IMG/VR virus record: IMGVR_UViG_3300006086_000017
Location: 1-36,005 of that record
DNA from: a virus
Strand: one strand, 5' to 3'
DNA length: 36,005 nucleotides
Below, in pieces: positions 596 through 33,271 of the stretch. The translations under genes and the position numbers were made by a program. How positions within the stretch are numbered: position 1 is the stretch's first letter; each line of letters begins with the position of its first letter. The notes beneath the pieces are model-generated. The model was not told the origin of the DNA. It saw only the letters and a list, made by a program, of their open reading frames with translations, and did no database searches.

Positions 596-608
596 TTACA
601 ATTGTGAA
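596..608 (-). promoter_or_regulatory. CAATTGT motif copy upstream of the radical SAM gene
   Basis: Reads TTCACAATTGTAA on the minus strand and overlaps the stop codon of the gene at 596-811. It is one of about ten copies of a near-palindromic motif found at unit starts in this window. The downstream TAnnTTTG element is poor here, so an operator role is as likely as a promoter. The following 541-590 stretch contains a small ACCTG/CAGGT hairpin. Confidence 0.45.
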
Positions 609-811
609 ACTTTTAAATAATTGTAGCTCGAAAGCATTTCATTAACCTCGGCTTGGATCCAGGCGTTTAAAAAAATATTGTTGGCCTCAATTCGGATTTG
701 AAATTTTATTAATTGGTCATAATCCGCAACATCTTTCGCGGGTACCAATTTTTCCAGGATTTCGATATGGCTATTAATTTGTTTCCGGATATATTCCAAT
801 TTTGTTTCCAT
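596..811 (-). CDS. Small early phage protein, unknown
   Basis: A 71-residue soluble, charged and probably helical protein starting METKLEYI, with no recognised domain. It lies in the minus-strand early operon between a short 33-residue frame and the radical SAM gene. Its last codons (VSQL stop) are formed by the CAATTGT motif, so the regulatory site for the next gene is embedded in this gene's 3' end. The ATG start has no competing upstream start and follows an AT-rich gap typical of Bacteroidota initiation regions. Function unknown; likely accessory. Confidence 0.55.
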   Translation of the reverse strand: METKLEYIRKQINSHIEILEKLVPAKDVADYDQLIKFQIRIEANNIFLNAWIQAEVNEMLSSYNYLKVSQL

Positions 812-857
812 AATTTTCGATTACGATTTTTAAAGATTGTTTCCTTTTTATTTCGGC

Positions 858-959
858 CTAGGCCCTAATACAGTCTTTCAGATAAAGACAATTGAAAGCG
901 TTTTTATAATACCTTTCAAGATCCTCGATCTCGATTTCAAGGGCCTCATATTCGCTCAT
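858..959 (-). CDS. Very short early frame, 33 residues
   Basis: An ATG at 959 opens a 33-codon frame (MSEYEALEIEIEDLERYYKN...) ending in TAG at 858. It fills an otherwise empty gap of about 180 bases between two small genes of the same strand. Its composition (acidic, helical, coiled-coil-like) resembles its neighbours, which is the only support. No recognised family. It could be a real microprotein or chance. Confidence 0.35.
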   Translation of the reverse strand: MSEYEALEIEIEDLERYYKNAFNCLYLKDCIRA

Positions 960-993
960 TTCTCAATATATTTTTGCGTAGGAATTGGTTTGC

Positions 994-1191
994 CTAAATA
1001 AACACAGTCGGACTATAAGAACTGGTTTCCTCCTGAATCTCTTCCTCTAATTGCTTTTCTTGAAGGATTAAAAGTTGATTTTCCAGGATCTTTTTAACGG
1101 TTGGGGAAATTTTGATTAAGCCCTCATCCGCCTTCTCTAATACTTCAATGGTATTGCGGAGCTTCGAATTAATAATTTCAGATCGAGTCAT
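994..1191 (-). CDS. Small early phage protein, unknown
   Basis: A 65-residue protein if started at the ATG at 1191 (MTRSEIINSKLR). A longer reading from 1218 needs a TTG start and overlaps the upstream gene further, so I prefer the ATG. It still overlaps the 3' end of the upstream gene by 14 bases, suggesting translational coupling. The protein is strongly helical and Glu/Lys-rich, with a probable coiled coil in its second half (ENQLLILQEKQLEEEIQEE). No recognised domain. Confidence 0.5.
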   Translation of the reverse strand: MTRSEIINSKLRNTIEVLEKADEGLIKISPTVKKILENQLLILQEKQLEEEIQEETSSYSPTVFI

Positions 1192-1681
1192 TTTCAAGAA
1201 TGAGTTTAAATTGTTCAATTAATTTATGAGGTGGTATTGTAGGGGAATTAAAAACGGAACGAAGTAATTTTAATTTGACAAATTGATCCTCAGAGGGTAG
1301 GCAGGAAAGCCTATTAAGTAAAGAGGAAAGGGTTTCAAAAGCTCGTTCAAAATCCGCCTCCTCAAATCGCTCTATTCGGTTTTTTAAAAAAGCGTTTCGC
1401 TCTTCTAAAAATTCGTTTTTGCCTTGAAGATCCTTATTAATAACCTTTTGAAGTGTAATTTCCGAGGAAAAATTATTATTTATTTCTTTTAATTTGTTAG
1501 TCGAAAATTCAAGCTCTTTTGCTTTAAGGTTTTCAATTACCTCTTTATTTAAAAACGTGAGCTTGTTAATCTTTTTATTTGCCTCTTGCAATTCAAGATT
1601 TTGCATATAATTCATATTTGACAACTCCTTAAACTCATTTTTTAAGGCTTCGTAAATTGATTTTTTTACTAATCCAATCAT
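1178..1681 (-). CDS. Coiled-coil early phage protein, unknown
   Basis: A 167-residue protein starting MIGLVKKSIYEALKNE. Nearly the whole length to about residue 110 is predicted helix with heptad-like Leu/Ile/Phe spacing and many Lys/Glu/Asn, so it is probably an elongated oligomer. The C-terminal part (PTIPPHKLIEQFKLILEN) looks like a short separate helix pair. It starts 1 base after the stop of the upstream gene and overlaps the downstream gene, so it is part of one operon. No catalytic motif and no family recognised. Confidence 0.6.
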   Translation of the reverse strand: MIGLVKKSIYEALKNEFKELSNMNYMQNLELQEANKKINKLTFLNKEVIENLKAKELEFSTNKLKEINNNFSSEITLQKVINKDLQGKNEFLEERNAFLKNRIERFEEADFERAFETLSSLLNRLSCLPSEDQFVKLKLLRSVFNSPTIPPHKLIEQFKLILENDSI

Positions 1682-1682
1682 T

Positions 1683-2213
1683 TTAAAGGGAGTTTAATTG
1701 AGTGAAAGCCGGAAAGTTTTTGACGAGAAAATCGTAACCGAAACAATGAAAGGCCGAATATTTGCCGATCTCAAAAATTTGCTCGTAGGAAATATGAATG
1801 GCTGGAAAGATCTTGGATCTTGCCTCCCAAATAGGAAGTATGTCAACGATAGATTTTATGACGTAATCCTCGTTTCCAGTCTGAGCGAAGGTTTTTTGAA
1901 AGGTGGTTACACCTTCTTTATAACCGGCCAAAAAACAGGATTGAAAATGATAGCCGTTTATCCAAATATCTTTATAGGTTTTCGTATCTGTAAAATGTAT
2001 CCATGTGGCATTAATCAATAAGGCCAATTCAGGACTAAAAATTTTTATTTTTACAGATTTCATAAGATCTACGTCAATAATGGACCATATATAAAAATCA
2101 TTGCTCTCAACAAAGCTTTTATATTTATCAAATCGATCGCCGTAATCTTTAAGGTATTGGCCAAAATTTATACTATATAAATCCCCTGGCCTAAATGAAT
2201 CCATATTATGCAT
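1683..2213 (-). CDS. Early phage protein, unknown, aromatic-rich
   Basis: A 176-residue soluble protein, unusually rich in Phe, Tyr and Trp, consistent with a compact globular fold. Two starts are possible: ATG at 2213 (MHNMDSF) or the second Met three codons in. The first overlaps the upstream gene's 3' end by 8 bases, so coupled translation is likely. I recognise no motif. It lies in the small-gene early operon, where phages often carry host-takeover or anti-defence genes, but nothing in the sequence shows such a role. Confidence 0.6.
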   Translation of the reverse strand: MHNMDSFRPGDLYSINFGQYLKDYGDRFDKYKSFVESNDFYIWSIIDVDLMKSVKIKIFSPELALLINATWIHFTDTKTYKDIWINGYHFQSCFLAGYKEGVTTFQKTFAQTGNEDYVIKSIVDILPIWEARSKIFPAIHISYEQIFEIGKYSAFHCFGYDFLVKNFPAFTQLNSL

Positions 2214-2397
2214 GACCGTCGGGTAATCTATTTTTTAAAACGGTTTTCTTCAATTCTAAAGCAATATGCTCGAAGGTTTCATTAAACCCTGGCCGGTTGT
2301 CCGATTGAATAAAAACTACCCGATCGCCAAGGTCGAGTCTTAATTCTCCCCATTTATTTATAAAGGAGGTTTTGGATAGGTTTGATAATAATAACAT
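2206..2397 (-). CDS. Small early phage protein, unknown
   Basis: A 63-residue protein starting MLLLSNLSKTSFINKW. It has a short beta-rich middle (RLDLGDRVVFIQSD) and a helical, basic C-terminus. It overlaps the downstream 176-residue gene by 8 bases, as coupled phage genes often do. Upstream, 2398-2573 is non-coding and contains tandem repeats and a CAATTGT motif, so this gene probably begins its own transcription unit. No family recognised. Confidence 0.5.
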   Translation of the reverse strand: MLLLSNLSKTSFINKWGELRLDLGDRVVFIQSDNRPGFNETFEHIALELKKTVLKNRLPDGHA

Positions 2398-2507
2398 ATG
2401 TGATTTTTTAAGGTGAAAAATACAAGGTTGTAAATAGTCGATTTCCCCATCCTGGACAAGGTTTTCAGTTGTTTAGATTTCGTTATTACATAGGCGTTCT
2501 ACTCTTG

Positions 2508-2551
2508 TTATACGTTTGTTATACAAATATTATACAAATATTCACAATTGC
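2508..2551. repeat. Tandem 11-bp repeats next to a CAATTGT motif
   Basis: The plus strand reads TTATACGTTTG, TTATACAAATA, TTATACAAATA end to end (2508-2540), followed directly by TTCACAATTGC (2541-2551). The second and third units are identical and the first is degenerate. An 11-bp period is one helical turn, so a protein could occupy the same face repeatedly. On the minus strand the motif reads CAATTGT, five bases, then TTTGT, the same spacing as at other copies. This is probably the control region for the genes at 2397 and leftward. Confidence 0.5.
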
Positions 2552-2573
2552 AAAGTTTTAAAGAAAAAAAATT

Positions 2574-2897
2574 TTACTTGTGAACTTCTTCCTTTTGGAT
2601 GAGGCTTTCGATAATGCCTCGGTTTCGATCCATAAAGACGGAAACGAAATTCATTTTAACAGGGAAAGAATAGGTATGTTCCCATTTTAATAGGTCATAC
2701 CCCATACAGATATTTAGGATCCCGAAATAAGAATCGGGCTTAAATTCTCCGAGCTTTATTTCGGAAAGTAGGAATTCCCAAAACATTACAAGATCTACGC
2801 GAACCGAATAAAGAACCGGAGTATTGTTTACCTCAATCGATAAGGAAAGGTAATCCAGTTCCGGAGAAATCAAGTACGCTTTAAGGTTGAGGTTCAT
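2574..2897 (-). CDS. First gene of the leftward early operon, unknown
   Basis: A 107-residue protein starting MNLNLKAYLISPELDYLS. It alternates beta-like segments (LSLSIEVNNTPVLYSVRV) with a Trp/Phe-rich helix (MFWEFLLSEIKL). No recognised domain, signal peptide or membrane segment. It is the first gene read leftward from the divergent control region opposite the repressor, the position of cro-like or early regulators in temperate phages. It does not look like a helix-turn-helix protein, so I make no functional claim. Confidence 0.6.
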   Translation of the reverse strand: MNLNLKAYLISPELDYLSLSIEVNNTPVLYSVRVDLVMFWEFLLSEIKLGEFKPDSYFGILNICMGYDLLKWEHTYSFPVKMNFVSVFMDRNRGIIESLIQKEEVHK

Positions 2898-3207
2898 TTT
2901 TTATAATTCCCGATTCTTAAAATTAGTTTTATTTACAATACTTCGCATTAGTGAAGTTCGGCAAACCGTTAAAACACCTTTTTTTATAGGTTTATTCACC
3001 GTTTGCAATTCGCTTTTTACTAAATTTTGTATATGGATAATTTTCAAATCGCAACAAATATTAACGAGAACCAATATCTAAATTTATTTATTAAAGAAAA
3101 ATTCTTTTTAATTAATTTGTAACGAAACCTAGATCTATAACCAATTTGATACACATTCGTTTGATATAGCCTAGTTTTTGTATTTTTAGCCAAAACCCTT
3201 ATCTATT
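2898..3207. promoter_or_regulatory. Divergent control region between early operon and repressor
   Basis: 310 bases without a convincing gene between divergent units. It contains an imperfect inverted repeat, CTAGATCTATA (from about 3129) against TATAGCCTAG (3165-3173). Between these arms lies a pair of TTTGATA repeats (3145-3151 and 3160-3166, 15 bases apart). Further left are inverted copies GCAAAC (2961-2966) and GTTTGC (3001-3006). A TAGTTTTTG element at 3172-3180 resembles the Bacteroidota -7 box (TAnnTTTG) and lies about 30 bases before the repressor ATG. This layout is what one expects of a lysogeny switch; actual operators are inferred. Confidence 0.5.
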
Positions 3208-3663
3208 ATGAAAGCATCCGACAATGTGGATTACAAGTCCATTATTGGGCAAAGAGTAAAAGACTTTCGATCTTTTATCGGAAAAACACAATTACAAATC
3301 AAAGAAGAGGCCGAACAAATCGGTATTAAATTCGAACCAACTTTCTTATCCATGGTTGAAAATGGCCGGCGGGATTGTCATCCCCTTGTTTTCGTAGCTT
3401 TTCACCTTCTATACAATGCCAATATTGATTATTTCTTTAGCGGACGCGGAACCTTTATTTCCGATTATCCAGGCAAGAATAAAAATACGGATAGGACTAT
3501 CGAAGAAATCGTTCGGGAAATCGAAGTTCTCTTCCAAACCACCAACCAACTTCAAAACCAAATTAATCTTCTTACCGGTATTTTCAACAATCAAAAAGAG
3601 GCTTTAAACAAACTAATTCTCCCTATAAACGAGGCTATGGGGGAAAAAGTTGGCAAAAAGTAA
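3208..3663 (+). CDS. XRE-family helix-turn-helix repressor
   Basis: A 151-residue protein. Residues 13-80 form a lambda-repressor/XRE-type HTH: 'IGQRVKDFRSFIGKTQLQI', then 'FLSMVENGRRDCHPLVFVAF', the recognition region and following helix of this fold. The C-terminal part (95-140) is a coiled coil (EEIVREIEVLFQTTNQLQ), probably for dimerisation, with no S24 peptidase domain, so RecA-triggered self-cleavage is unlikely. It is followed by the integrase on the same strand and faces the early operon, the position of a CI-type maintenance repressor. Its TAA stop lies inside a CAATTGT motif oriented against the gene. Confidence 0.8.
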   Translation: MKASDNVDYKSIIGQRVKDFRSFIGKTQLQIKEEAEQIGIKFEPTFLSMVENGRRDCHPLVFVAFHLLYNANIDYFFSGRGTFISDYPGKNKNTDRTIEEIVREIEVLFQTTNQLQNQINLLTGIFNNQKEALNKLILPINEAMGEKVGKK

Positions 3664-3673
3664 CAATTGTGTA
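3654..3673 (-). promoter_or_regulatory. CAATTGT motif oriented antisense to the repressor
   Basis: On the minus strand: ACACAATTGT, TACT, TTTTG. This matches the core plus TAnnTTTG-like layout seen before phage operons, but points leftward into the 3' end of the repressor gene. If active it would make an antisense transcript across the repressor and toward the early operon. The plus-strand reading lacks the TTTG element. Activity is inferred from the pattern only. Confidence 0.4.
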
Positions 3674-3890
3674 CTAGACAAAAAACGGACAAATCGTCCA
3701 AATTCTCCATTTTAAAACCTTGTTTTTCGCTTGTTTTCCAGGATTTCAACCTCAAAAATATCCCGTCAAGAGTCTGTTGCTCTCCCTATACAAATTTAAC
3801 TTACTTATTATTAATACCTTATAATTTTATACAGACAAAATAAAGACAAAGTTTTCCAAATTTTACATATTTGGGAGCCTTGCCCTTATT
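3674..3890. other. Gap between repressor and integrase
   Basis: No gene is seen in these 217 bases. There is a weak GGAC/GTCC hairpin near 3688-3700 and an AT-rich stretch before the integrase ATG. I cannot identify a promoter or an attachment core with confidence. Since integrase genes often lie beside attP, this gap and the 5091-5127 gap are the natural candidates. Confidence 0.3.
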
Positions 3891-5090
3891 ATGAATAAAT
3901 TTAAGTTTACCATTCCGGAGATCTATATTCCCCGTAAAGGATCCCGTAATATTCCCGATCTGTCTCGTCCCTGGTTTGTCTTTTACCATTTCCAGGATCC
4001 GGCTACCGGTAAAATGAAACGATTTAAAGTATATGAAGGTATTAATCGATATAAGAACCTTTCCGATCGGCTTAGTTTTGCTAAGGAACTACAAAAAGCG
4101 ATCAAGGACCTATTACTTATCCATGGCTTTAATCCTTTTTCCAAGGATAACAAAATGGAGGAGGAGTTATCTTTGGTTCCTTTTGCCGTCGAAACGTATC
4201 TTAAGTATCAAGCGAATCGTATAACCGAATCAAGCTACTCAATACTTAGGTCCAGGCTAACGACTTTCGTAAAGTACCTGGAAACAAAATATCCTGATAT
4301 AGCAATTAATAAGGTCTCGACGAAAATTATTTTAGAGTTCCTGGATTACTTGGTATCCTCCGGTAAGGTTAAAGCGGGCAAAACCGTGAACTTATATCGA
4401 GGGTTTTTATCGGGATTCTTTAACTACTTACTATCCCTGGAAGATCCGGACCTCATCAAGATTAACCCTGTCCTTAGAATCGAGCGGAGGAAAACCATCA
4501 AGCAAGGAAATAGGCCCTATACGGACAAGGAGTTTGACTCAATTTTAGCCTATACAAACGATAATAATATTCAATTGAATAGAATGATAAGGTTTATATA
4601 TTATTCTTGCCTACGTCCAGGGAAAGAGGCTCGTTTATGCCAAATAAAGCATATTGAGATTCACCCTAAAGGAAACAGGATTTTAATACCGGCCTTAAAT
4701 TCTAAGACGGGCCGGATCCTTGGCGAGAATCAATATATTCCCCTGGATACATTTTTATATGAAATGCTCGACAAGGAAATGAATATCTTCTCCTATCCTC
4801 CGGACTACTATATTTTTTCTACCGATGGTACCCCTGGACCTCATCCGGTGAATATAAATTATTGGTCGAAACCCTTTCAGAAAATGAGGCAAGATCTTGG
4901 TTTGTCTCCGGAAAATACCCTTTACTCCGCCAAGCATACGCGTTGTTGTCATCTATTTTTAGACGGAGAGCCATTCGAACGGATCCGGCAATTAACCCGC
5001 CATTCTAATAATGCCATCCTCCAGGACTATTTGAAAGGCCTTGGGCTTATGATCTCGGAAACGGTTACGTTTAAGTCGAGAAGGGTATAA
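3891..5090 (+). CDS. int: Tyrosine-family site-specific integrase
   Basis: A 399-residue recombinase that would insert and excise the phage at att sites. Residues 90-190 are the SAM-like core-binding domain; 205-395 are the catalytic domain. Visible active-site residues are R242 (SCLRPGKEARL), K272 (NSKTGR), H371 (LTRHSNN) and nucleophile Y380 (LQDYLK), with the usual 9-residue H-to-Y spacing. The box normally read as HxxR is Y345-S-A-K348-H-T, a variant I know from Bacteroidota phage and transposon recombinases ('YSxKHT'). It follows the repressor on the plus strand and converges on the lysis module, separated by a hairpin. The length is typical for this group. Confidence 0.93.
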   Translation: MNKFKFTIPEIYIPRKGSRNIPDLSRPWFVFYHFQDPATGKMKRFKVYEGINRYKNLSDRLSFAKELQKAIKDLLLIHGFNPFSKDNKMEEELSLVPFAVETYLKYQANRITESSYSILRSRLTTFVKYLETKYPDIAINKVSTKIILEFLDYLVSSGKVKAGKTVNLYRGFLSGFFNYLLSLEDPDLIKINPVLRIERRKTIKQGNRPYTDKEFDSILAYTNDNNIQLNRMIRFIYYSCLRPGKEARLCQIKHIEIHPKGNRILIPALNSKTGRILGENQYIPLDTFLYEMLDKEMNIFSYPPDYYIFSTDGTPGPHPVNINYWSKPFQKMRQDLGLSPENTLYSAKHTRCCHLFLDGEPFERIRQLTRHSNNAILQDYLKGLGLMISETVTFKSRRV

Positions 5091-5092
5091 AT

Positions 5093-5125
5093 AAAAAAAG
5101 AGGCTTATGGCCCCTTTAATTTTTT
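5093..5125. terminator. Convergent bidirectional terminator
   Basis: AAAGAGGC (5097-5104) pairs with GCCCCTTT (5110-5117), with one mismatch, over a 5-base loop. A-runs precede it and T-runs follow it, so it can act on both strands. It lies exactly between the stop codons of the plus-strand integrase and the minus-strand lysis operon. Confidence 0.7.
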
Positions 5126-5127
5126 AT

Positions 5128-5592
5128 CTATCTTGCATTGGGCCGGTTGGTTGGCACCTCTCTAAAAGGGAAATGCCTCTTGATAACCTCATCCTCCAAG
5201 TTTTCGGTATAGGTTCTATTATTAGAATCCTTCATCGGCTCGTTGCTGAGAATGGATCCCTTTTGCCTTTCTTCAAACTCTTTAAAATCCGAGGACAAAG
5301 GCTTTTTGAATTCTTGCTCCCTTAGATAAGGGTTTACATAGTCGCTCTCGTATTTCTTAATTTTATCAGCCAACTTTTCTCGTTCTCGTATTTCCTCAGT
5401 CCATTTTTTTAAATACCTTTTTTGGCTCTGAAAAAAATTATAGGCCCGTCGTTCTGCGGATAGTAGTTTTGTCTCAAGATCCTTGATAGTATATTTCTGA
5501 GAATCAATGACCCTTTCAAAATCGCAAATCGCAAATATTAAAAATAGCAAAAGAAGGATAATGGAAAAAATAGACAATAGTATAATATTCAT
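5128..5592 (-). CDS. Membrane-anchored coiled-coil protein, probable Rz-like spanin
   Basis: A 154-residue protein with one strong N-terminal membrane segment (residues 2-23: IILLSIFSIILLLLFLIF), then a long charged coiled coil (about 25-90) and a polar tail. This is the layout of inner-membrane spanins (Rz), which join inner and outer membranes and complete lysis of Gram-negative cells. It is the last gene of the lysis module, downstream of the holin candidate and lysozyme, where spanins usually lie. The assignment rests on topology and position, not on a sequence family. It overlaps the upstream gene by 4 bases (ATGA). Confidence 0.6.
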   Translation of the reverse strand: MNIILLSIFSIILLLLFLIFAICDFERVIDSQKYTIKDLETKLLSAERRAYNFFQSQKRYLKKWTEEIREREKLADKIKKYESDYVNPYLREQEFKKPLSSDFKEFEERQKGSILSNEPMKDSNNRTYTENLEDEVIKRHFPFREVPTNRPNAR

Positions 5593-6152
5593 AGCTTAAG
5601 TTTTGGAAGGGTTGGGATTGGAATATTGGCCTCTAATTGATTGATTTTTACTGGATCTTTCTTTTTAATATTTGGCCGAATGACATACCAATAAAGAGCC
5701 AGGATCCAAACAAATACGACGATTAACCAAACATACCAAGGGATATTCCGCCCAATAGTAGAATCCTTTTTGACGGCCATATTCTTAAAAAGTGAATCGA
5801 CTTTCTTGGAGGAAACTCGGTTTATAACCTTAGTGGATCCGGTATCCTTATACACATACACCGTTCTAATACTATCATAAGGAACCTTTACGTAAACCAT
5901 AATCTTTTTGCCCTGGATGTATTTGGTAACCGTATCGATCCGGAATTTTATTTCGGTTTGAGTAATTTTTCCCGTGAGTTTATTAAAAACCGAAACCGAT
6001 CTTAAGCTATCAAATTCTGCAAGCTTTAAATGGCCTACGGATTTATTTCGATCCGTTACCTTGCAACCAAAACAGAATAGGATCAAGGCTATCGAAAGCA
6101 ATAGGCATAGAATCAATAAGGCTCTAATACCTAAATATCCGGCCTTTTTCAT
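5589..6152 (-). CDS. Two-segment membrane protein of the lysis module, unknown
   Basis: A 187-residue protein. Residues 8-28 form a hydrophobic segment ending in CFGC, which could be a loose lipobox. Residues 40-130 are a beta-rich extracytoplasmic region (KITQTEIKFRIDTVTKYI). About 138-158 is a second membrane helix (WYVWLIVVFVWILALYWYV), followed by a basic tail. With the spanin candidate downstream (4-base overlap) and lysozyme upstream it is probably part of envelope disruption, perhaps as partner spanin or accessory holin. No family recognised; the second helix argues against a simple outer-membrane lipoprotein. Confidence 0.55.
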   Translation of the reverse strand: MKKAGYLGIRALLILCLLLSIALILFCFGCKVTDRNKSVGHLKLAEFDSLRSVSVFNKLTGKITQTEIKFRIDTVTKYIQGKKIMVYVKVPYDSIRTVYVYKDTGSTKVINRVSSKKVDSLFKNMAVKKDSTIGRNIPWYVWLIVVFVWILALYWYVIRPNIKKKDPVKINQLEANIPIPTLPKLKL

Positions 6153-6433
6153 TGGACCGGAGGCGTGGTAATAGCCGGCTCTGTACCTGGTAAGGTATTG
6201 GTCTTGCTCTGAGAAATAGCGACTAAAGTAGATCCGGCGACTACGGTTACGTGATAAGCCGTTAACCCAAAAAGATGAGGGATCTTAATATTAACCAAAA
6301 AATCTTTCAAGGCTTCTCCCTCGGTATGTAGCCAAATAAGAGAGCCTACGACGGTATTCCGGACCCATTTCCAAGCAACCGGAGTTTCTTGAAAAATGCC
6401 TTTTAAAAAGGCTTGTAATGAAGTTGTTTTCAT
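6149..6433 (-). CDS. Small lysis-module protein, possible membrane protein
   Basis: A 94-residue protein from the ATG at 6433 (MKTTSLQAFLKGIF). A longer reading from 6481 overlaps the lysozyme gene and is less likely. Residues about 50-72 (HLFGLTAYHVTVVAGSTLVAI) form one moderately hydrophobic segment, followed by a Thr/Pro-rich tail. It begins 4 bases after the lysozyme stop and overlaps the next gene by 4 bases, so it is tightly coupled to lysis genes. It could be a holin-like or antiholin-like protein; the sequence alone does not decide. Confidence 0.5.
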   Translation of the reverse strand: MKTTSLQAFLKGIFQETPVAWKWVRNTVVGSLIWLHTEGEALKDFLVNIKIPHLFGLTAYHVTVVAGSTLVAISQSKTNTLPGTEPAITTPPVQ

Positions 6434-6437
6434 TGCT

Positions 6438-7185: not shown

Positions 7186-7196
7186 TTATAAAGGGT

Positions 7197-7823
7197 TTAA
7201 AAAAAGTCTATGACCTTACAGCTCTTAGGTTCCGGTTGGTTTTTTAGATTTCCGTAATTATCTTCAATCTCAGGATCCTTTTTGTCCGCTCCGTCGTATT
7301 CGAGTGGATTAAAGGCCCTATCATTTATATCATCGCCCTTCTTTTTTTGAAAAGAAATTTTTTCTAACTCCTCGAATGTTGCGGGATCTTCATATTCGAA
7401 GAAATCGTCCAGGATGTAAAAATTAAAGTCCTCTAATTGTGTAAAGGAAAGGTCCTTGGTATCGGTATTAATAAAATACGTCCGAACGGGATAGGTCTCC
7501 TCGTTTAGTTGTTGAATGACTTTATTAACCTCCTTTTGCCCTTCCTTGGTGTACCTGAAATTCCCGTCCGGCCCCTTTAACAGTTCTTTTGTTGCGGGAT
7601 CTTCTAAGGCGTGATCGACCAAAACGTCTCGATATTTGGCATTATACTTTTCAAGGTTTTTATCGATATCGTCAATAACCCGTTTCATCGCATAAGCCCG
7701 TCGAGTATTTAACTCGGCCCCGTTCGGATTATCCTCCTTTTTTGCATTGATATACATTAAAGCGGAGTTCTTAAACTTCATTTGTTCTCCAATTGTCCGG
7801 TAAATAGTGGTTCTGTTAGCCAT
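7197..7823 (-). CDS. Phage protein of unknown function between fibre and lysis genes
   Basis: A 208-residue acidic, soluble protein with mixed helix and strand. The N-terminus (MANRTTIYRTIGEQMKF) is followed by a helical charged stretch and an Asp/Glu-rich C-terminal third ending in KVIDFF. No signal peptide, membrane segment or known motif. It has its own CAATTGT/TAACTTTG promoter-like element about 30-50 bases upstream of the ATG, so it begins the late lysis transcript. It might be a fibre assembly chaperone or lysis regulator by position only. Confidence 0.55.
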   Translation of the reverse strand: MANRTTIYRTIGEQMKFKNSALMYINAKKEDNPNGAELNTRRAYAMKRVIDDIDKNLEKYNAKYRDVLVDHALEDPATKELLKGPDGNFRYTKEGQKEVNKVIQQLNEETYPVRTYFINTDTKDLSFTQLEDFNFYILDDFFEYEDPATFEELEKISFQKKKGDDINDRAFNPLEYDGADKKDPEIEDNYGNLKNQPEPKSCKVIDFF

Positions 7824-7854
7824 TTTTTAAGTTTTTGAGTTTTAAATTATTATA

Positions 7855-7873
7855 CCAAAGTTAACAATTGTGA
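7855..7873 (-). promoter_or_regulatory. CAATTGT promoter-like element upstream of 7823 gene
   Basis: The minus strand reads TCACAATTGT then TAACTTTG, a perfect TAnnTTTG match to the Bacteroidota -7 box. It lies about 30 bases upstream of the ATG at 7823 and just after the fibre gene. No TTTG is seen at the normal -33 position; CACAATTGT occupies the spacer instead. Confidence 0.6.
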
Positions 7874-7889
7874 GATTTTTTACTAATTA

Positions 7890-11681: not shown

Positions 11682-11685
11682 TTAT

Positions 11686-13628: not shown

Positions 13629-13649
13629 AACTATAAAAAGTATTTCGCC

Positions 13650-13928: not shown

Positions 13929-13930
13929 GG

Positions 13931-14113: not shown

Positions 14114-14124
14114 TTACCGGATTA

Positions 14125-14769
14125 TTAGATTATAGCCGTTTCGGTTACCGAGCTAGTTCCAACCGGAGCGGGAATAAGAGCTAAAAGGGCCGTTTTGGTC
14201 GCGTTATAATCGTATAAAATAGTAGTGGATCCCGTAGGCGGTACCTGGAAAGAGGCGGGCATATTAGGTTCCTGGACGTTTTTGGGCTTGGTTAAAATCA
14301 AGTTGAAAGATCCGGATCCATTGGCGTCGTTGGTATCCCTGGTATTGGCCGTAAGCACTAATCCGGCTCCTAATCCGTATATCTCAAAAGTCGCATCCCC
14401 TCCCTGGTATAGGTTTTCTACAATACAGAAAACACGGCCAAAAGCCAAGTTTTGCAAAATTGCTTTAACGGAGGCCGAATTTGTCAGCGCGCGGAATTTA
14501 ATCTCATGCTCATAACGGGGACCGGCGTCTAATTCAACAAGCTTATGACTTGCGGAAAAGATATTGTTAATACCCTGGATCGCATGACCGGAGGTTCCGG
14601 CGTTCATAGTAATACCGGTAACAATATTGGGATCTACATTCGAGCGAGTAATTTGGGCGTCCGCTCTATTAAATAGATAGATAAAATCGGTAATTCCGGG
14701 GACTATAGGAGACGCGCAATTAAGTAAGAGCGAGTTTTGTATATTCCCACAAACGGAGTTTAAAGGCAT
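14125..14769 (-). CDS. Major tail (tube) protein candidate
   Basis: A 214-residue, strand-rich protein with no signal peptide (MPLNSVCGNIQNSLLLNC). The pattern of Gly/Asn/Thr-rich strands with a central 'ASHKLVELDAGPRYEHEIKF' and 'FCIVENLYQGGDATFEIYG' resembles tail-tube proteins of Bacteroidota siphoviruses. Size fits, as does position directly after the capsid gene. A CAATTGT motif lies about 40-60 bases upstream, giving it strong independent expression as expected for an abundant virion protein. The alternative is a capsid decoration protein. Confidence 0.6.
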   Translation of the reverse strand: MPLNSVCGNIQNSLLLNCASPIVPGITDFIYLFNRADAQITRSNVDPNIVTGITMNAGTSGHAIQGINNIFSASHKLVELDAGPRYEHEIKFRALTNSASVKAILQNLAFGRVFCIVENLYQGGDATFEIYGLGAGLVLTANTRDTNDANGSGSFNLILTKPKNVQEPNMPASFQVPPTGSTTILYDYNATKTALLALIPAPVGTSSVTETAII

Positions 14770-14808
14770 TTTCTTTTATTTTAAGGGTTAAAACCTATAT
14801 AATATTGG

Positions 14809-14828
14809 CTTATGGTAACAATTGTGAA
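14809..14828 (-). promoter_or_regulatory. CAATTGT motif between capsid and tail-tube candidate
   Basis: The minus strand reads TTCACAATTGTTACCATAAG in the 63-base gap between the capsid stop (14833) and the ATG at 14769. It keeps the full TTCACAATTGTTA half of the motif but lacks a TTTG after it. Its place between two presumably abundant structural proteins suggests an internal promoter. Confidence 0.5.
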
Positions 14829-14832
14829 CTTT

Positions 14833-16047: not shown

Positions 16048-16072
16048 TTTTATATTTTTTTATAGAGTTTAA

Positions 16073-17473: not shown

Positions 17474-17480
17474 ACAGTAA

Positions 17481-17508
17481 AATTCACAAAACATAACGAT
17501 TGTGAATT
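17481..17508 (-). promoter_or_regulatory. CAATCGT promoter/operator inside a 9-bp perfect inverted repeat
   Basis: The minus strand reads TTCACAATCGT then TATGTTTTGT about 10-13 bases before the protease ATG at 17473. AATTCACAA (17481-17489) and TTGTGAATT (17500-17508) are perfect inverted repeats with a 10-base spacer around it. This gives a dimeric-protein binding site overlapping the -7-like element. Confidence 0.6.
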
Positions 17509-17995: not shown

Positions 17996-18008
17996 TTTTT
18001 TTTATTTA

Positions 18009-21059: not shown

Positions 21060-21060
21060 A

Positions 21061-25391: not shown

Positions 25392-25393
25392 TT

Positions 25394-25849: not shown

Positions 25850-25851
25850 GG

Positions 25852-26319
25852 CTAACAAAAACCTTGATTTGGGATAATAGACAGATTCCGAACGTCCAGG
25901 GTTACGCCGGTGTAATTCGCGTCATATTTAGCAACCTTAGAGATGATATCGACCTTGGTTTTATTCGGCTCAATTTTAAAAACCTTGATCCCGTTTAAAG
26001 AATAATCCCTTAGTTTAATTAAGAAGTTTTCGCAATATCCGGATTGACGAACTAAAACAGGATCGTTTTCCGTCAAATATTGGCCTTGAGGTGTTTGTTC
26101 CATAAACTGCATTAAGAAAGAATAGGAGCGGTTAAAACCTCCGGACATGGCAAAATCCAAACCTGTCTTATAAGCATCGACCAAAAAAACGACCGGCGTG
26201 CCCGTCGTAACTTTATCGCCAAGATCATTAATCTCGTTTGCGGTTCCATAAGCGTAAACCGGCAATGGACTTAATTCCAGGACGATAGATTCGATTATTG
26301 AGTTTAAAGAAACGGCCAT
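25852..26319 (-). CDS. Tail completion or minor tail protein
   Basis: A 155-residue protein from the ATG at 26319 (MAVSLNSIIESIVLEL). A TTG reading from 26337 would place the start inside the promoter motif, so I reject it. The globular middle 'TTGTPVVFLVDAYKTGLDFA' and a C-terminal beta region 'GIKVFKIEPNKTKVDIISK' suggest a small alpha/beta tail terminator-like protein. The TAGTTTTG element ends only 5 bases before the ATG, so its mRNA may be leaderless. Role is inferred from position between the tail chaperone pair and the gp10-like gene. Confidence 0.5.
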   Translation of the reverse strand: MAVSLNSIIESIVLELSPLPVYAYGTANEINDLGDKVTTGTPVVFLVDAYKTGLDFAMSGGFNRSYSFLMQFMEQTPQGQYLTENDPVLVRQSGYCENFLIKLRDYSLNGIKVFKIEPNKTKVDIISKVAKYDANYTGVTLDVRNLSIIPNQGFC

Positions 26320-26323
26320 ATTG

Positions 26324-26343
26324 ACAAAACTAAACAATTGTTA
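26324..26343 (-). promoter_or_regulatory. CAATTGT promoter with TAGTTTTG directly before the ATG
   Basis: The minus strand reads TTAACAATTGT, T, TAGTTTTG, then TCAAT and the ATG at 26319. The -7-like box is a perfect TAnnTTTG. If transcription begins 5-7 bases after it, the transcript starts at or within a few bases of the initiation codon. Confidence 0.6.
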
Positions 26344-26348
26344 AGATT

Positions 26349-27193: not shown

Positions 27194-27195
27194 TT

Positions 27196-28524
27196 TTATA
27201 GCATTCCTTTTAAACCTAATGGATCGGGAACAATTCTCTGTGGTAACCTGGTTTTTACCCCCCGACGGCCTCCCATTGGTATTTTGTAAACGACTCCATA
27301 CCCTAAAGCATCCATCAAGTGATTATATAAATCAATCGGCTCATTTATAAAATGGCCAGGATCGTCCTCCGGTATGTTCTTGTTTTCCTTATACTTATAC
27401 CGTTTCAATTCCTTAATCAAATTAAGTGAACTTTTAACAATATTCATAGGATAAGATTTTACCGTAGCAATTCGATATTTGATATCCTTTTGACCGGCTC
27501 CCCGAATATTCCAACCGTATTTTCTTAAATCCTCGATATCTTTTGGAGACGCCGAATCCGCGCAAATTTCATCGATTCCGGGCCGGATCCCAACTTCTTT
27601 AAAAGCGTGATGAATATCATTATTAAGCATACCGGTGCGATAAAACTCCTCCTTGTAATATAGCCCTCCGGATTTCTTGCCTATTCTTACCAAGGCGGAT
27701 GGATCGTTCGTATAACCGAAATCCAACCCCCAAACTACCCAATCGCACCCCTCCGGAAATTCATCCACCAAATTATAATGCTCGTAAACCAATCCCTTAA
27801 GTACGCCTCCAAATAGGCCAAGGACATACATTCGATAAAACTCCTTGGAAATATCTTTTAGGTTTTCCAGGACAAAAGCGCGCTCCGGAGAGCAATACTT
27901 ATTATCCTTATACGTGGTATGGCAAATGAGCGTATTTTTTTTGGTGGATGGAACAAACTTAAAAACGCCGTCTTCTTTTTCAAAGCTTGCAATAGGTGGA
28001 AAGAAGTAATGGTATATCCAATTGTTTTCCATGTCCTCCGGATTAAACGATATAAATTCCTGGATGGTGGCCGGCTTAGTAGATCGAAGGGATTGAGAGG
28101 CTCTAAGGAAGTCGATAAGGGTTAACTCGTTGGCCTCTTCATACCAAATAAAAGTTGGATCCGAAATCGATTTTAACTTTGTCGATTTGTCCATTCCCCT
28201 CGCAATAATCTGATTTTTATTTTTTTTGCAGACTATTTTTAACGGGGATGTAGTAATGATAAACTCGTCTTTTAATTCGAGATCTTCAATGATATCGACA
28301 ATTTTTTGAAACTGAGAGTCCTTAATATCGGAGTATACTTTTCGAACGAGTACCCCTCTCGCGTATGGCTCAGTAAGAATTTTTAGGATACACTTTAAGG
28401 CGATATTATGAGTTTTTCCTGAGTCTCGACTTCCATATAAGATAATGTATCTATAGTGGACAAATGGTAAAAACTGGTAAACGGGCAAAAAAAGTTTTGA
28501 TGAGATTTCAACCGTTTTTTTCAT
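27196..28524 (-). CDS. terL: Terminase large subunit
   Basis: A 442-residue packaging motor. The ATPase has Walker A GSRDSGKT at 31-38 and Walker B 'TFIWYEEANEL' near 124-134, with catalytic Glu 129/130. The nuclease domain starts with LDFGYTNDPS, where Asp268 would bind metal, and continues with 'DEICADSASPKDI', which supplies a second acidic site as in TerL RNase H-like nucleases. It resembles the PBSX-type large terminases. It overlaps the small terminase gene by 4 bases (ATGA). Directly downstream are tail genes rather than the portal. Confidence 0.93.
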   Translation of the reverse strand: MKKTVEISSKLFLPVYQFLPFVHYRYIILYGSRDSGKTHNIALKCILKILTEPYARGVLVRKVYSDIKDSQFQKIVDIIEDLELKDEFIITTSPLKIVCKKNKNQIIARGMDKSTKLKSISDPTFIWYEEANELTLIDFLRASQSLRSTKPATIQEFISFNPEDMENNWIYHYFFPPIASFEKEDGVFKFVPSTKKNTLICHTTYKDNKYCSPERAFVLENLKDISKEFYRMYVLGLFGGVLKGLVYEHYNLVDEFPEGCDWVVWGLDFGYTNDPSALVRIGKKSGGLYYKEEFYRTGMLNNDIHHAFKEVGIRPGIDEICADSASPKDIEDLRKYGWNIRGAGQKDIKYRIATVKSYPMNIVKSSLNLIKELKRYKYKENKNIPEDDPGHFINEPIDLYNHLMDALGYGVVYKIPMGGRRGVKTRLPQRIVPDPLGLKGML

Positions 28525-29012
28525 TCTATTTCGATATGGGGAATATCGTCGGGCCTTTCGCCAATAATTCGAAATTCGGTTTCTGAGGCCTTAAGGGTGT
28601 TATCTTCATAATTTCCCTGGATCTTGTTTAGTTCCCCTAATGCCCTTACCATGTCGGAAAAAGACGGTTTTTCTTTTACTTTTACGGCCCTTTCCCCGTT
28701 AAAATACTCTTTAACGATAACCATCTTTCCGGATCCTATAGCGGATAATATTTCTTGGATCTGTAAGGAGTTGAGTATAACCGGAGCGGTTTCCTTTATC
28801 TTTTCTTTGACAACCTTATCGATTATTTTTTTCTCGATTTGTTTTTGAGTAGATCCATTTTTGGATTTCGCCTCCTTCCAATACCTATTGAACGTACTGA
28901 GAGGCAAGTTCCATTTAGTCCCATTTAATTCCAGTACGTCAAACCAAGTTTTTTTGGTAAGAATGAGATTGTAAAACTCGTTTATAATTTCTGATTTATT
29001 GCCCCTGGACAT
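28521..29012 (-). CDS. terS: Small terminase subunit candidate
   Basis: A 163-residue protein from the ATG at 29012 (MSRGNKSEIINEFYNLIL). Residues 1-50 look like a DNA-binding helical domain ending in 'LPLSTFNRYWKEAKSK', similar to helix-turn-helix regions of small terminases. The middle (KIIDKVVKEKIKETAPVILN) and 'SFSDMVRALGELNKIQGNYE' are helical and typical for terminase partners that end in 'GEL.Kl.G.y'. It overlaps TerL by 4 bases. A TAGTTTTG element lies 3 bases upstream, suggesting a leaderless mRNA. Confidence 0.75.
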   Translation of the reverse strand: MSRGNKSEIINEFYNLILTKKTWFDVLELNGTKWNLPLSTFNRYWKEAKSKNGSTQKQIEKKIIDKVVKEKIKETAPVILNSLQIQEILSAIGSGKMVIVKEYFNGERAVKVKEKPSFSDMVRALGELNKIQGNYEDNTLKASETEFRIIGERPDDIPHIEIE

Positions 29013-29014
29013 AT

Positions 29015-29034
29015 ACAAAACTAAACAATTGTGT
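29015..29034 (-). promoter_or_regulatory. CAATTGT promoter of the late operon, before terS
   Basis: The minus strand reads ACACAATTGT, T, TAGTTTTG, then TAT and the ATG at 29012. It also has a TTTG 17 bases upstream of the -7 box, close to the Bacteroidota -33 element. It follows a terminator (29042-29068) directly, so this is the clearest promoter of the set and would drive the whole morphogenesis operon. Confidence 0.7.
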
Positions 29035-29041
29035 ATTAAAC

Positions 29042-29068
29042 AAAAAAAGCCTCGGTTAGGAGGCTCTT
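29042..29068 (-). terminator. Rho-independent terminator after the IPT/PKD gene
   Basis: The minus strand reads AGCCTC, CTAACC loop, GAGGCT, then a run of T (A42-48 on plus), a perfect 6-bp GC-rich stem extended by A-U/G-U pairs. It separates the exported cassette from the morphogenesis operon. Confidence 0.85.
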
Positions 29069-29089
29069 TATTGAAGGTTCAAAATTTTG

Positions 29090-31123
29090 TTAAGAGTGGG
29101 ATACCACTTTGATCGCATTTAAAACCGAAAAGAAGCTTGTAAGCGGTTTTGAAATGGTGATCGTAATAGCCCCGCTTGAATCCGGAACTACAGAGGCGAT
29201 TTCTGTGAGGTTTGATTGATTGTTCTTAGGATCAAAGGTTACCAAATTGCCGTTAACGGTTGCGGTGGTTTGGCAATTGATCCAAGGGAACATCCAGGAC
29301 GCGAAGAAATATAAATCGTATTTAAGATTTCTATTTAATCCGTTAAGCTGAATCGTTGCCCCATTTGGCATTATCCAGGCGGTTTGCAAAACTTCGTCTA
29401 AAAATACACCGCTATTATTATTGGTGGTATAGCCAAACTCCGCCGTATTGTCCAAGGTATCGTTAATGGTAATGGACCCAAATACATTTAGATTACCATC
29501 CAAAAGAGGTAAGGAAAAAGATCCAGGGACCAAATTATTATTCCCGACGGACCGATAAATATTATTATACGGAGTAGGGGCGACATTCGACGTATCGGTA
29601 AAGTTTATCAAGCAAATTGCCTGAGTAACCGGTACCGGATTGACTAGGATAGATACTTGGCTTGTGTTGGATCCTCCGTCCGAGGCGATGGATTTTAATT
29701 GATATACATACGTTCCGGCTTGAGTAAATGAAACGGTGGTACTCAATATATTCGGGTTTGAAATGATATCTCCGGACGGCCCTGAGATTTTGGTCCAGGT
29801 ATCGGAAATAATCGCAGAGGATCCGGCGGAGGCTTGTCCGTTTAATTGCGCGCCATTGGGAAGGGTAACCGTGGAATTTGATCCGGCGGAAACCGTTGGA
29901 TTTACAATATTAGCCGATTGGTAGTTAATTGAAACTTGCGAAATGCTACTTAAACCGGTAACGGTATCAATTATTTCTAATTGAAAGGTATTTACTCCTA
30001 AAGAAAGGCCGGTTACTTGTGTGGTTTGGCTGTTAGGATTTTGAATTGTTCCCGATCCATTTTCTACGGTCCAAAGGAACTGAAACAATCCGTTTAAGCC
30101 CGAAGATCCATAATTCGTAATCGATCCGGATAAGGTCGCCGAATTTTGCGAAACTATTGAATTTGATCCCGCCGATCCAATTGGGGCAACAAGATCATAA
30201 GGAGGGATTACAATCGTAGACGGCTCGTAAGTAAACGGTAAGGAGTTGGATGGTGTTCCTCCTCCTACGATTACGGAAACGTCGTAAACCGAAGCGTTTA
30301 ACTCAGTCGGGGTTTGCAAATAAAAATCAAACCGATTGCCCAATCCGTTTAAAAAGCTCATGTTAGGGCCGTTGTACGTAGGGGACGGAAAGGGTTGGGG
30401 GACGGTAATGTTCGAAATATAGGGAACGGTAACCGTATCATACGGCGCGTTTCTATTGGTGAATTTTACCGCAACTTGCGTAATATCGGTACCGAAATTA
30501 GTTCCTTCAAATTCTAAAATTTGGTTTAAGGATCCGGAGCTTGGATTTAAACCGTTTCCATCGGTATTTAAAGTAACTAATGGCGCGGTATAGGTGAAAT
30601 TATTAGTTCCGGAATTGGAAACCCCTTGAGAGGTAACCACCACATTCCCCACAAATCCAGGCGAATTATTAGGAACAATTACCGTAATAGAGGTAGACGT
30701 AACCGGAGTGCTTGGGTCTATGGTGGCGTTTATCCCGCCGATTGCAACCGTGGTTTGGCCAGGGGTCGTATTAAAGTTGGTTCCGGTAATGGTAAGCTTA
30801 GAGCCTTGGGATCCGGACGTTTGGGATAAACCGCTTATAGTGGGAACCGGTATTGCCGTAACATTAAAAGTAACCGAATTGGCCGTATTGGTTCCATCAA
30901 ACAAGTGAATATAATATCCGGATCCAGGCGGTAAAGCTCCGGCGGTTACGGTCATTTGGGTATCGGTTCCCGATTTGCCCTCGTAATAATTTTTGCCGGT
31001 AGAATCAAAAATTTGAACGGATCCGCCGGAATATACATTATTGAAACCGGTACCGTTAATTATAATATTCCCGCCGGCTTGCGTTATATCCGGAATGGAT
31101 TGGGTTGTTATCGATAAAGCCAT
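29090..31123 (-). CDS. Multidomain IPT/TIG and PKD-like surface or virion protein
   Basis: A 677-residue beta protein with no signal peptide. It has three IPT/TIG immunoglobulin-like domains (about 1-85, 92-180, 185-305; e.g. SIPDITQAGGNIIINGTGFN and SGSQGSKLTITGTNFN), two PKD/Ig-like domains (about 310-405 and 405-495; 'SNSTVTLPNGAQLNGQASAG') and a C-terminal beta domain (500-677; 'WIMPNGATIQLNGLNRNLKY') resembling carbohydrate-binding folds. It overlaps the glycosidase gene by one base, so the two are coupled. It could be a capsid or tail decoration that holds glycans, or a secreted partner; lack of a leader favours a virion role. Confidence 0.7.
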   Translation of the reverse strand: MALSITTQSIPDITQAGGNIIINGTGFNNVYSGGSVQIFDSTGKNYYEGKSGTDTQMTVTAGALPPGSGYYIHLFDGTNTANSVTFNVTAIPVPTISGLSQTSGSQGSKLTITGTNFNTTPGQTTVAIGGINATIDPSTPVTSTSITVIVPNNSPGFVGNVVVTSQGVSNSGTNNFTYTAPLVTLNTDGNGLNPSSGSLNQILEFEGTNFGTDITQVAVKFTNRNAPYDTVTVPYISNITVPQPFPSPTYNGPNMSFLNGLGNRFDFYLQTPTELNASVYDVSVIVGGGTPSNSLPFTYEPSTIVIPPYDLVAPIGSAGSNSIVSQNSATLSGSITNYGSSGLNGLFQFLWTVENGSGTIQNPNSQTTQVTGLSLGVNTFQLEIIDTVTGLSSISQVSINYQSANIVNPTVSAGSNSTVTLPNGAQLNGQASAGSSAIISDTWTKISGPSGDIISNPNILSTTVSFTQAGTYVYQLKSIASDGGSNTSQVSILVNPVPVTQAICLINFTDTSNVAPTPYNNIYRSVGNNNLVPGSFSLPLLDGNLNVFGSITINDTLDNTAEFGYTTNNNSGVFLDEVLQTAWIMPNGATIQLNGLNRNLKYDLYFFASWMFPWINCQTTATVNGNLVTFDPKNNQSNLTEIASVVPDSSGAITITISKPLTSFFSVLNAIKVVSHS

Positions 31124-32814
31124 TATTGAAAGAATTTAGGGAGTCCGTTTAAAATAACTGTTTGACCATATACCGTTTGGCTTGGATATTTAGTCCAATC
31201 CGTAAGATAATCCGTTGCGCCAGGTTTCGAGGCGTTCCAAGTCCAGGCTTTTGAAATTTTAATGCTATTTGGAAAGGTAAAATATTTGGTCGTTGATTCG
31301 GATTTGTCGTTATGCTGTTCCGTCCAAATGGCATATCGGGTAATATGAGGGGTAACCTTGCTGTTTGTAAAGGCGATCCCAATAAAATTAACCCCATCAG
31401 TATTGAGATTTTTGGTAGCGACGGAGTCGTAGGCGTAATTAAAAAATAGTCCCGAAATGGTGGTTTCGGCAATTCCCGCCGGTTTTTTGTGTACCAAAGA
31501 GTAATTACTGTTTTTAATGGAGTCCGGACAAGAATAGGACCCCATGTAGGTATTGGAATTATCGGTATAATTTTTTGCTGTAGGCGGTAGAAAACCTTCG
31601 TCGGCAAAACTGTATTTATAGAGTTGAACAATTCCGTCTTTTTGAGCGGATAAATATTGTTTAATGGTATAGGCTAACTGCATTTCGTCCGATCCGTAAT
31701 TCTGAGGACCGTTCCAGTCTGATACGCTTTGGGTATCGAATTCGGTAAACATATACTGTTTTTTAGGGTATGTAGCTCCATTAAACCCGTGCGCCTTTAC
31801 GACTGAGTCGATACCATTGTGACCGAAAAGGTGGTCATGAAATATTTTTATAAGGGTATCGCTATTTCGTAGATAAACTTGGCCTGCAATCGCATTGCTA
31901 TATTTATGGGTAGAATAATTAGGGTAGTCATGCAGAGAACACATATCGAACCAAGCTCCGCCGTAGTACGGATAAGCAGAGGTTACCGTTCCGGCTCCTT
32001 TAGATGGATTGCCTTGGCCGTCGCTTCCTGGATTGTCGGTATATCGCAAAATCATATCCATGGTTTGAGCATATCCGATTCCTCCGGTTACCACCTTTGA
32101 TTGAGGGGCATAAACGTGGACTATTTCGTAAGTAATACGTAGCATACGGATATAAGCAAAAATATGCCCGTACATATTGTAGTAATTTTGAGGTTCCCCT
32201 GGTTGTTGCCAATAACTCTTGGGATCTGAGGCAGGTAAATACAGTCCTTGTCCACCTCCTAGGTCGGGTTCGTTCCAAACTTCGTAGTATCTAAATTGGC
32301 CAGGATACTTTACGACCATATGATATACATATCTAGCCCAATAATTATTTGCCGTATCGACGGTTCCGTCGCTATTCCAAATTGGCGTGTAAAGGCCCTT
32401 GGGCAATACGGATCGGTAAAGTGTGGTTCCGGAGGCGACGGCGGGATAATTATAAATGGTGGTATCGGTGTGATCTGAGGCCATTCCGTTTAAAAAAACG
32501 GTGTTATTATAGAAATCGAGCTTGTTTTGATTGAATTGATATCGAGTTAAGGCCCAAGTATTTCCGTAGATTTCTTCCTGGTAAGCCTCCGGATTAGAAG
32601 TTCTCGTCGAGTGCGCTCCTAATAAATATTGCAAGCGTGCGCTTGAGGTGTCCGGCCAATTTCCTCCGGCTAAATAACCCGAATTGATTCCGTAAGAACA
32701 TGATGCTGTATCCGGCGGATTGGTTGTTAAGGCGTTCGGGGTTTGATGAGGATCCGTTTGAGCGAAAGATTTTAGAGAGGCAAAAAGCAATAATAAGATG
32801 AGTATCTTTTTCAT
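31123..32814 (-). CDS. Exported glycoside hydrolase, clan GH-A (GH39/GH5-like)
   Basis: A 563-residue enzyme with a signal peptide (KKILILLLLFASLKSFA, cut before Q19). The body is a TIM-barrel glycosidase: 'FRYYEVWNEPDL' with probable acid/base Glu182, and 'QYMFTEFDTQS' with probable nucleophile Glu358, the two clan GH-A carboxylates. Other barrel segments such as 'DMCSLHDYPNY' and 'QLYKYSFADEG' support this. The substrate is unknown; a host or competitor polysaccharide is likely. It follows the small exported gene by 1 base and shares its promoter. An enzyme with a classical leader is unusual within a phage structural region and suggests action outside the infected cell. Confidence 0.82.
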   Translation of the reverse strand: MKKILILLLLFASLKSFAQTDPHQTPNALTTNPPDTASCSYGINSGYLAGGNWPDTSSARLQYLLGAHSTRTSNPEAYQEEIYGNTWALTRYQFNQNKLDFYNNTVFLNGMASDHTDTTIYNYPAVASGTTLYRSVLPKGLYTPIWNSDGTVDTANNYWARYVYHMVVKYPGQFRYYEVWNEPDLGGGQGLYLPASDPKSYWQQPGEPQNYYNMYGHIFAYIRMLRITYEIVHVYAPQSKVVTGGIGYAQTMDMILRYTDNPGSDGQGNPSKGAGTVTSAYPYYGGAWFDMCSLHDYPNYSTHKYSNAIAGQVYLRNSDTLIKIFHDHLFGHNGIDSVVKAHGFNGATYPKKQYMFTEFDTQSVSDWNGPQNYGSDEMQLAYTIKQYLSAQKDGIVQLYKYSFADEGFLPPTAKNYTDNSNTYMGSYSCPDSIKNSNYSLVHKKPAGIAETTISGLFFNYAYDSVATKNLNTDGVNFIGIAFTNSKVTPHITRYAIWTEQHNDKSESTTKYFTFPNSIKISKAWTWNASKPGATDYLTDWTKYPSQTVYGQTVILNGLPKFFQ

Positions 32815-32815
32815 T

Positions 32816-33109
32816 TTATTTACGTGGTCTTAATTGAGCGATATTCTTTTTTTCAGTTAAAATTTCCTTGACGGCAATACCGTATTGAATAGGGTTTAGA
32901 ATAACCGAGTCCAATACTTTTCCATTTTTGTCTTTGACGGCGACTTTGGGCCAATTGGCGATTACTTTTTTGAGCCGTTCGATTTTGATTGACGAGATTT
33001 TCCTTTGATAGGCAAATTCCTTGGCCGTATCGGTTTTAAAAATGACTTTTTGGCTAAAAGCCGAAATAGTCATAATTTGAAAACAGAGTAAAAAGAGAGT
33101 TTTTTTCAT
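32816..33109 (-). CDS. Small exported protein, unknown
   Basis: A 97-residue protein with a signal peptide (MKKTLFLLCFQIMTISAFS, cut before Q20) and a 78-residue basic mature part (KTDTAKEFAYQRKISSIKI, then VAVKDKNGKVLDSVILN). It is the first gene of the terminator-bounded cassette and ends 1 base before the glycosidase ATG. It could help the glycosidase or act on the envelope, but no family is recognised. Two CAATTGT-like copies lie upstream. Confidence 0.65.
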   Translation of the reverse strand: MKKTLFLLCFQIMTISAFSQKVIFKTDTAKEFAYQRKISSIKIERLKKVIANWPKVAVKDKNGKVLDSVILNPIQYGIAVKEILTEKKNIAQLRPRK

Positions 33110-33130
33110 TTTTTCTTTTTTAAGTTAATT

Positions 33131-33152
33131 ACAAAACATAACAAAAGTGAAC
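33131..33152 (-). promoter_or_regulatory. CAATTGT-class promoter of the exported cassette
   Basis: The minus strand reads TTCACTTTTGT, TATGTTTTGT, about 20 bases before the ATG at 33109. The CAATTGT core is degenerate (CTTTTGT), but flanks and spacing match the 17486-17506 copy almost exactly. It follows a terminator directly. Confidence 0.5.
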
Positions 33153-33163
33153 ACAATTAGCAT

Positions 33164-33197
33164 AAAAAAAGGGAATTAAGGCGTTCCCCTAATTCCC
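33164..33197 (-). terminator. Rho-independent terminator after the replication block
   Basis: The minus strand reads GGGAATTAGG, a 6-base loop, then CCTTAATTCCC with one bulge and seven T. It is a long strong stem between the RuvC-like gene and the exported cassette. Confidence 0.85.
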
Positions 33198-33271
33198 TAC
33201 CTTGCGTTAATTAATCCTATGAATCCTATGAAATTCAGAGCCTAAAATTACAAAAACTTTTCAATCGTGAA
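33198..33271 (-). ncRNA. Possible short transcript between motif and terminator
   Basis: A CAATTGT-class copy (33250-33271: TTCACGATTGAAAAGTTTTTGT on minus) lies immediately after the RuvC-like stop and only about 50 bases before the strong terminator at 33164-33197. No coding frame of useful length lies between. If this motif is active, the unit would make an RNA of roughly 70-80 bases including the hairpin. It contains a direct repeat of AATCCTATG. The alternative is that the motif is only an operator. Confidence 0.35.

Follow-up and report, generated by a model that had tools for sequence, protein, structure and literature searches.

Operators dispersed along a temperate phage genome are already known, those of c1 in phage P1 being one lead. 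In SP-beta, the proven case of one repressor on dispersed promoter elements, MrpR acts at SPBRE, a short element repeated at the promoter regions of many phage genes, and lysogeny rests on this single repressor (PMC10516654). In Cluster A phages such as L5 and Bxb1, dispersed repeats share one orientation relative to transcription, and related phages each have their own version of the site (PMC6550527). Here we describe eleven sites with a common 14-bp dyad in the IMG/VR virus record IMGVR_UViG_3300006086_000017, a temperate tailed phage by gene content whose hosts are Bacteroidota-type bacteria; the whole record of 36,005 bases was analysed and is called the window below. Among the described systems, the dyad would work most like SPBRE: it too is an element repeated at the predicted promoters of several units, with 11 copies next to a -7 box and one in each gap of 50 bp or more. 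The two differ in their parts: MrpR folds like a tyrosine recombinase and acts on 15 bp of another sequence, whereas the candidate binder here is of the XRE type and the 14-bp site forms a dyad that merges with the Bacteroidota -7 box. With SP-beta and L5 as precedents, the design is neat, not unprecedented.

An earlier, sequence-only reading of this DNA had listed ten near-identical motifs, at 596, 2541, 3654, 7855, 14809, 17486, 26324, 29015, 33131 and 33250. All ten were found within a few bases of these coordinates, each oriented to the minus strand, but "near-identical" was too strong: the exact ACAATTGT occurs in six sites, and the other four carry variant cores (GCAATTGT at 2541, ACAATCGT at 17486, ACTTTTGT at 33131 and ACGATTGA at 33250). 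Under a second-order Markov model, an unsupervised count gave 6 copies of ACAATTGT versus 0.66 expected, and the two 8-mers most enriched in gaps, again counted without supervision, were CAATTGTG and ACAATTGT. When each site was scored with a leave-one-out matrix, 9 of 10 outranked all other minus-strand positions in the window, and only 33250 was weak. The conserved stretch extends over 22 columns with fixed spacing, and its consensus contains the palindrome TTCAC-AATT-GTGAA in a 5-4-5 layout. The hexamer CAATTG alone is unremarkable (25 copies versus 17 expected, most inside genes); its role as a restriction site was ruled out, since the hexamer is not avoided and its enrichment is mild.

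Scanning the whole window for the 14-bp TTCACAATTGTGAA with a threshold of at least 11 of 14 positions yielded exactly ten matches, versus 2.4 expected by chance. These were nine of the listed sites and a new one at 2942-2955, the palindrome at 33131 scoring 10/14 and thus falling below the threshold. All ten matches lie in gaps, which make up 4.2% of the window, or overlap a gene end or gap edge, and no match at this threshold was found inside the gene bodies of the window. Each of the nine gaps of at least 50 bp contains a site, as does one 28-bp gap. The placement described earlier, mostly in gaps or gene ends and upstream of a minus-strand gene, was confirmed, as nine of the ten listed sites precede such a gene, the exception being 3654. 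A motif equally frequent inside genes or by chance is the opposite of what the scan and the ACAATTGT count revealed.

Bacteroidota sigma-A promoters consist of a -7 box, TAnnTTTG, and a TTTG at -33, and in flavobacterial maps of transcription start sites the -7 box is found at -12 to -5 (PMC9723704). TTTG or TAnnTTTG stands on the coding strand at a fixed distance from the dyad in 8 of the 11 sites: the G of TTTG falls 8-10 bases past CACAATTGT at eight sites on the minus strand but never on the plus strand (binomial P about 1e-8). The exact TAnnTTTG was seen by eye at 7855, 26324 and 29015, while 596, 2942 and 14809 have no TTTG at the fixed offset. Because the -7 box has been mapped at -12 to -5 (PMC9723704), the dyad would reach from about -23 to -10 and have bases in common with that box. 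Its right arm loses symmetry (GTTA, not GTGAA) exactly at the overlap with the TA of this box, which an operator merged with a promoter would be expected to show. The dyad is centred near -16 and extends into the -7 box, and repressor operators are commonly located around such a position. The proposal of a phage-wide promoter or operator family, with a palindromic core beside a Bacteroidota -7 box, is supported by dyad form, confinement to gaps and fixed TTTG spacing. The motif is genuine, and it is very improbable that AT-rich gaps yielded look-alike boxes through chance or composition; the gaps are AT-rich and the copy at 33250 is weak, but the excess of ACAATTGT, ten palindrome matches with none in gene bodies and a TTTG spacing of that significance all argue against it.

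Compared with an ordinary sigma-A promoter, the sites carry the extra dyad upstream of and into the -7 box, and a TTTG at -33 is present at just four of them (3654, 29015, 33250 and 2942, where it was seen by eye about 16-19 bases upstream). The earlier claim that the -33 TTTG is missing in most copies stood (7 of 11), but there was no support for reading this absence as the mark of a special activator or sigma factor. An alternative sigma factor, phage or host coded, could in principle recognise the entire CACAATTGTTAnnTTTTG block, in line with conservation over 22 columns at fixed spacing. This is unlikely, since no sigma-like protein was found in the window, the downstream part is the ordinary sigma-A TAnnTTTG in several copies, and the dyad would be left unexplained; a host promoter class is further disfavoured by a scan in which 10 of 395 Bacteroidota genomes had a match, each a single one.

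We hold with moderate confidence, at about an even chance, that the eleven sites are sigma-A promoters of lytic units with a common dyad operator bound by a phage dimer, most likely the XRE repressor. The simplest reading of a dyad that merges with the -7 box is that of a repressor operator. We infer promoter activity and, at the dyad, dimer binding and repression, with the XRE protein as the putative binder. The operator TTCAC-AATT-GTGAA would lie directly upstream of the -7 box and overlap its first bases. In the prophage, a phage-coded dimer, most likely the XRE protein encoded at 3208-3663, would occupy all sites and silence each lytic unit, competing with RNA polymerase from its position at about -23 to -10. 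Among the silenced promoters would be the early one at 2942 and, behind the repressor gene, an antisense one at 3654; upon induction all units would open together.

The eleventh site (2935-2956, minus strand; palindrome 2942-2955) was missed by the sequence-only reading. Its palindrome scores 11/14, and its matrix score is 14.0 though it was outside the training set. It is located about 45 bp before the first early gene (2574-2897), in the divergent region between repressor and early genes; its core is TAAT, and ATTG replaces TTTG at the same offset. This palindrome may conceivably be an unrelated operator, an idea held early on, but its spacing and orientation both agree with the other sites. 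Because this site sits at the early promoter, we prefer a lysogeny repressor over a late-only activator; control of every lytic unit by such a repressor would fit both this copy and the one behind the repressor gene.

An activator is nevertheless a possible, if doubtful, alternative, in which an early phage protein on the dyad would open late or middle promoters that lack a -33 box, in the manner of T4 MotA or of MerR. The best full matches precede late genes (putative small terminase, protease and tail genes), the TTTG at about -33 is missing in 7 of 11 sites, and the early-promoter copy is weak. Yet a dyad at -23 to -10 would be an unusual activator position, no activator gene was recognised in the window, and sites are also found at the early-region genes 2206-2397 and 2574-2897.

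The repressor reading has its own difficulties. A key repressor site is expected to be strong, yet the one at the early promoter ranks with the more degenerate copies, given its 11/14 palindrome, TAAT core and ATTG; nor was a second operator found in the switch region of the window. No relative of the XRE protein turned up in the sets searched, and its pairing with the site is accordingly putative. Finally, the contig ends inside two early-type genes, and another regulator may be missing.

The candidate repressor (3208-3663, plus strand, 151 aa) matches Pfam HTH_19 with an E value of 0.0016, under the curated cut-off. It has a helix-turn-helix followed by a long C-terminal helix; a structure model of low confidence (pLDDT 57) has a helical domain at the N terminus and suggests that the C-terminal helix could dimerise. 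No peptidase domain was found by Pfam. Its earlier naming as a candidate binder is supported, and no other DNA-binding regulator was recognised in the window. Searches for relatives in phages, IMG/VR and about 700 Bacteroidota genomes returned none, and these are weak negatives with no positive control. Bacteroidetes SOS boxes resemble the sites in being short promoter dyads read by phage-repressor-like proteins (GGA-N5-TCC and CTAA-N5-TTAG, with TTAC-AAATT-GTAA as a diverged form; PMC8565304). This identity was rejected, since the half-sites differ and the SOS spacer is odd. As a further difference, no S24 peptidase domain was found in the repressor of the window.

All 11 sites are on the minus strand, 10 of them directed along the lytic genes and one, 3654, antisense to the repressor gene. 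Strong intrinsic terminators, likewise on the minus strand, end 9 nt before 29015 (terminator 29044-29069), 13 nt before 3654 (3686-3700) and 19 nt before 33131 (33170-33198), and these three sites would therefore open transcription units. This bears on whether the sites are stoperators, at which, as in mycobacteriophage L5, the repressor would halt elongating RNA polymerase instead of preventing promoter opening. Many dispersed copies of one orientation in short gaps recall the L5 clade (PMC6550527), and the orientation is as in L5; however, most L5 sites are not promoter associated (PMC6550527), and they are 13 bp long, asymmetric and present in up to about 30 copies, whereas the window has 11 copies of a dyad at predicted unit starts, next to a -7 box with constant spacing and shortly past terminators. 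Two features that define stoperators, asymmetry and a place away from promoters, are lacking. An L5-type repressor reads an asymmetric site (PMC9283540), and we regard a stoperator role as quite unlikely here.

With respect to the individual sites, 596 (588-609; palindrome 595-608, 12/14) precedes a radical-SAM-like gene (1-521) by about 75 bp, and 2541 (2534-2555; palindrome 2541-2554, 12/14) has its TTTG at offset 9 and precedes the gene 2206-2397. The site 3654 (3653-3674; palindrome 3660-3673) is located at the stop codon of the repressor gene; just past its terminator and pointing into that gene, it could give rise to an antisense transcript against the repressor. Upstream of the genes 7197-7823 and 14125-14769 are 7855 (7854-7875; palindrome 7861-7874), which carries TAACTTTG, and 14809 (14808-14829; palindrome 14815-14828), with TAGGTTTT further down. 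The site 17486 (17486-17507; palindrome 17493-17506) precedes the head maturation protease gene, whose listed start at 17494 is over-extended; the likely start is 17473, with a leader of about 9 nt. Both 26324 (26324-26345; palindrome 26331-26344) and 29015 (29015-29036; palindrome 29022-29035) carry TAGTTTTG. The units that they precede, 25852-26319 (predicted leader 0-2 nt) and the putative small terminase gene 28521-29012, are predicted to have no leader or almost none; leaderless transcripts account for only 4-6% of Bacteroidota mRNAs (PMC9723704, PMC7366714). At the right, 33131 (33131-33152; palindrome 33138-33151) precedes the gene 32816-33109 and is separated by its terminator from 33250 (33251-33272; palindrome 33258-33271); two sites flanking a strong terminator give 33110-33274 an attenuator-like layout.

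The minus-strand genes of the window include those for terminase, portal, head protease, tape measure, endolysin and replication, and a tyrosine integrase typical of a temperate phage is encoded on the plus strand at 3891-5090 (phrog_1, E=1.6e-33). The window ends truncate the radical-SAM-like gene at the left and a different gene (35523-36005) at the right, no terminal repeat was found at the ends, and part of the early region is probably missing. A circular genome was considered, as a frame is open across the junction, yet the two ends read as different genes and the contig was treated as incomplete.

An exact-pattern scan of IMG/VR for the motif found single matches in 14 contigs and, in the stretches examined, no site family. 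The whole records of 14 relatives contained no match, and no site family was found among about 80 further relatives by major capsid protein; a seemingly comparable dispersed motif in one locus (L006) was rejected as tandem repeats. Relatives of the portal (46-50%) and major capsid (50-54%) proteins are mostly in Mucilaginibacter. There, a cassette of major capsid, portal, head protease and tail genes is present at about one copy per genome in some 50 genomes (loci L033-L084 and L114-L137; 62 of 400 Sphingobacteriaceae genomes). Its core genes share 79-88% identity and are present in 38 of 38 full loci compared, and it looks like a vertically inherited element, gene-transfer-agent-like or a domesticated prophage.

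These cassettes carry a different dispersed dyad, ATGCC-N4-GGCAT, followed by a conserved AAaCAT. We counted 40 exact copies in 52 loci versus 0-1 for six control dyads, and 32 of the 40 were in gaps or gene starts; contig G803 has four strong copies in its terminase-tail part, and in six whole genomes the exact extended form is mostly within the cassette region. As in the window, this is a 14-bp dyad of 5-4-5 layout, dispersed in gaps before homologous structural genes, but with another half-site; the TTTG, where seen, is mostly 4 bases upstream, which would place the dyad at about +1 to +14 and not upstream of the -7 box. The aattATGCCAATTGGCATttaAAaCAT dyad was seen in gaps before structural genes (e.g., L214:398, L070:2073, L045:1239 and L054:3281), often 4 bases after TTTG and possibly at the very start of the transcript. 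Gaps of the cassettes also hold a CCTCTAAC-type repeat in long runs (100 copies in L060; also in L010, L055 and L063). We tentatively suggest, as a speculative idea, that this structural-cassette lineage of Bacteroidota has one dispersed 5-4-5 dyad per lineage, read by a lineage-specific regulator of late units (TTCAC-N4-GTGAA in the phage, ATGCC-N4-GGCAT in Mucilaginibacter). If true, a regulatory plan would be conserved, with drifting specificity, across phage and domesticated forms.

Regulation of Bacteroidota temperate phages is little described in the literature searched. In the phage studied here, one virus protein may well use a site at nearly every gene block to hold the growth genes off together. 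A single dyad at every unit start predicts promoters across the whole phage and lends itself to a repressor binding assay and an immunity test. Different dyads before homologous genes in the phage and in Mucilaginibacter offer a handle on shifts of operator specificity within a phage lineage, and the contrast also bears on the control of a possible gene transfer agent in Bacteroidota.
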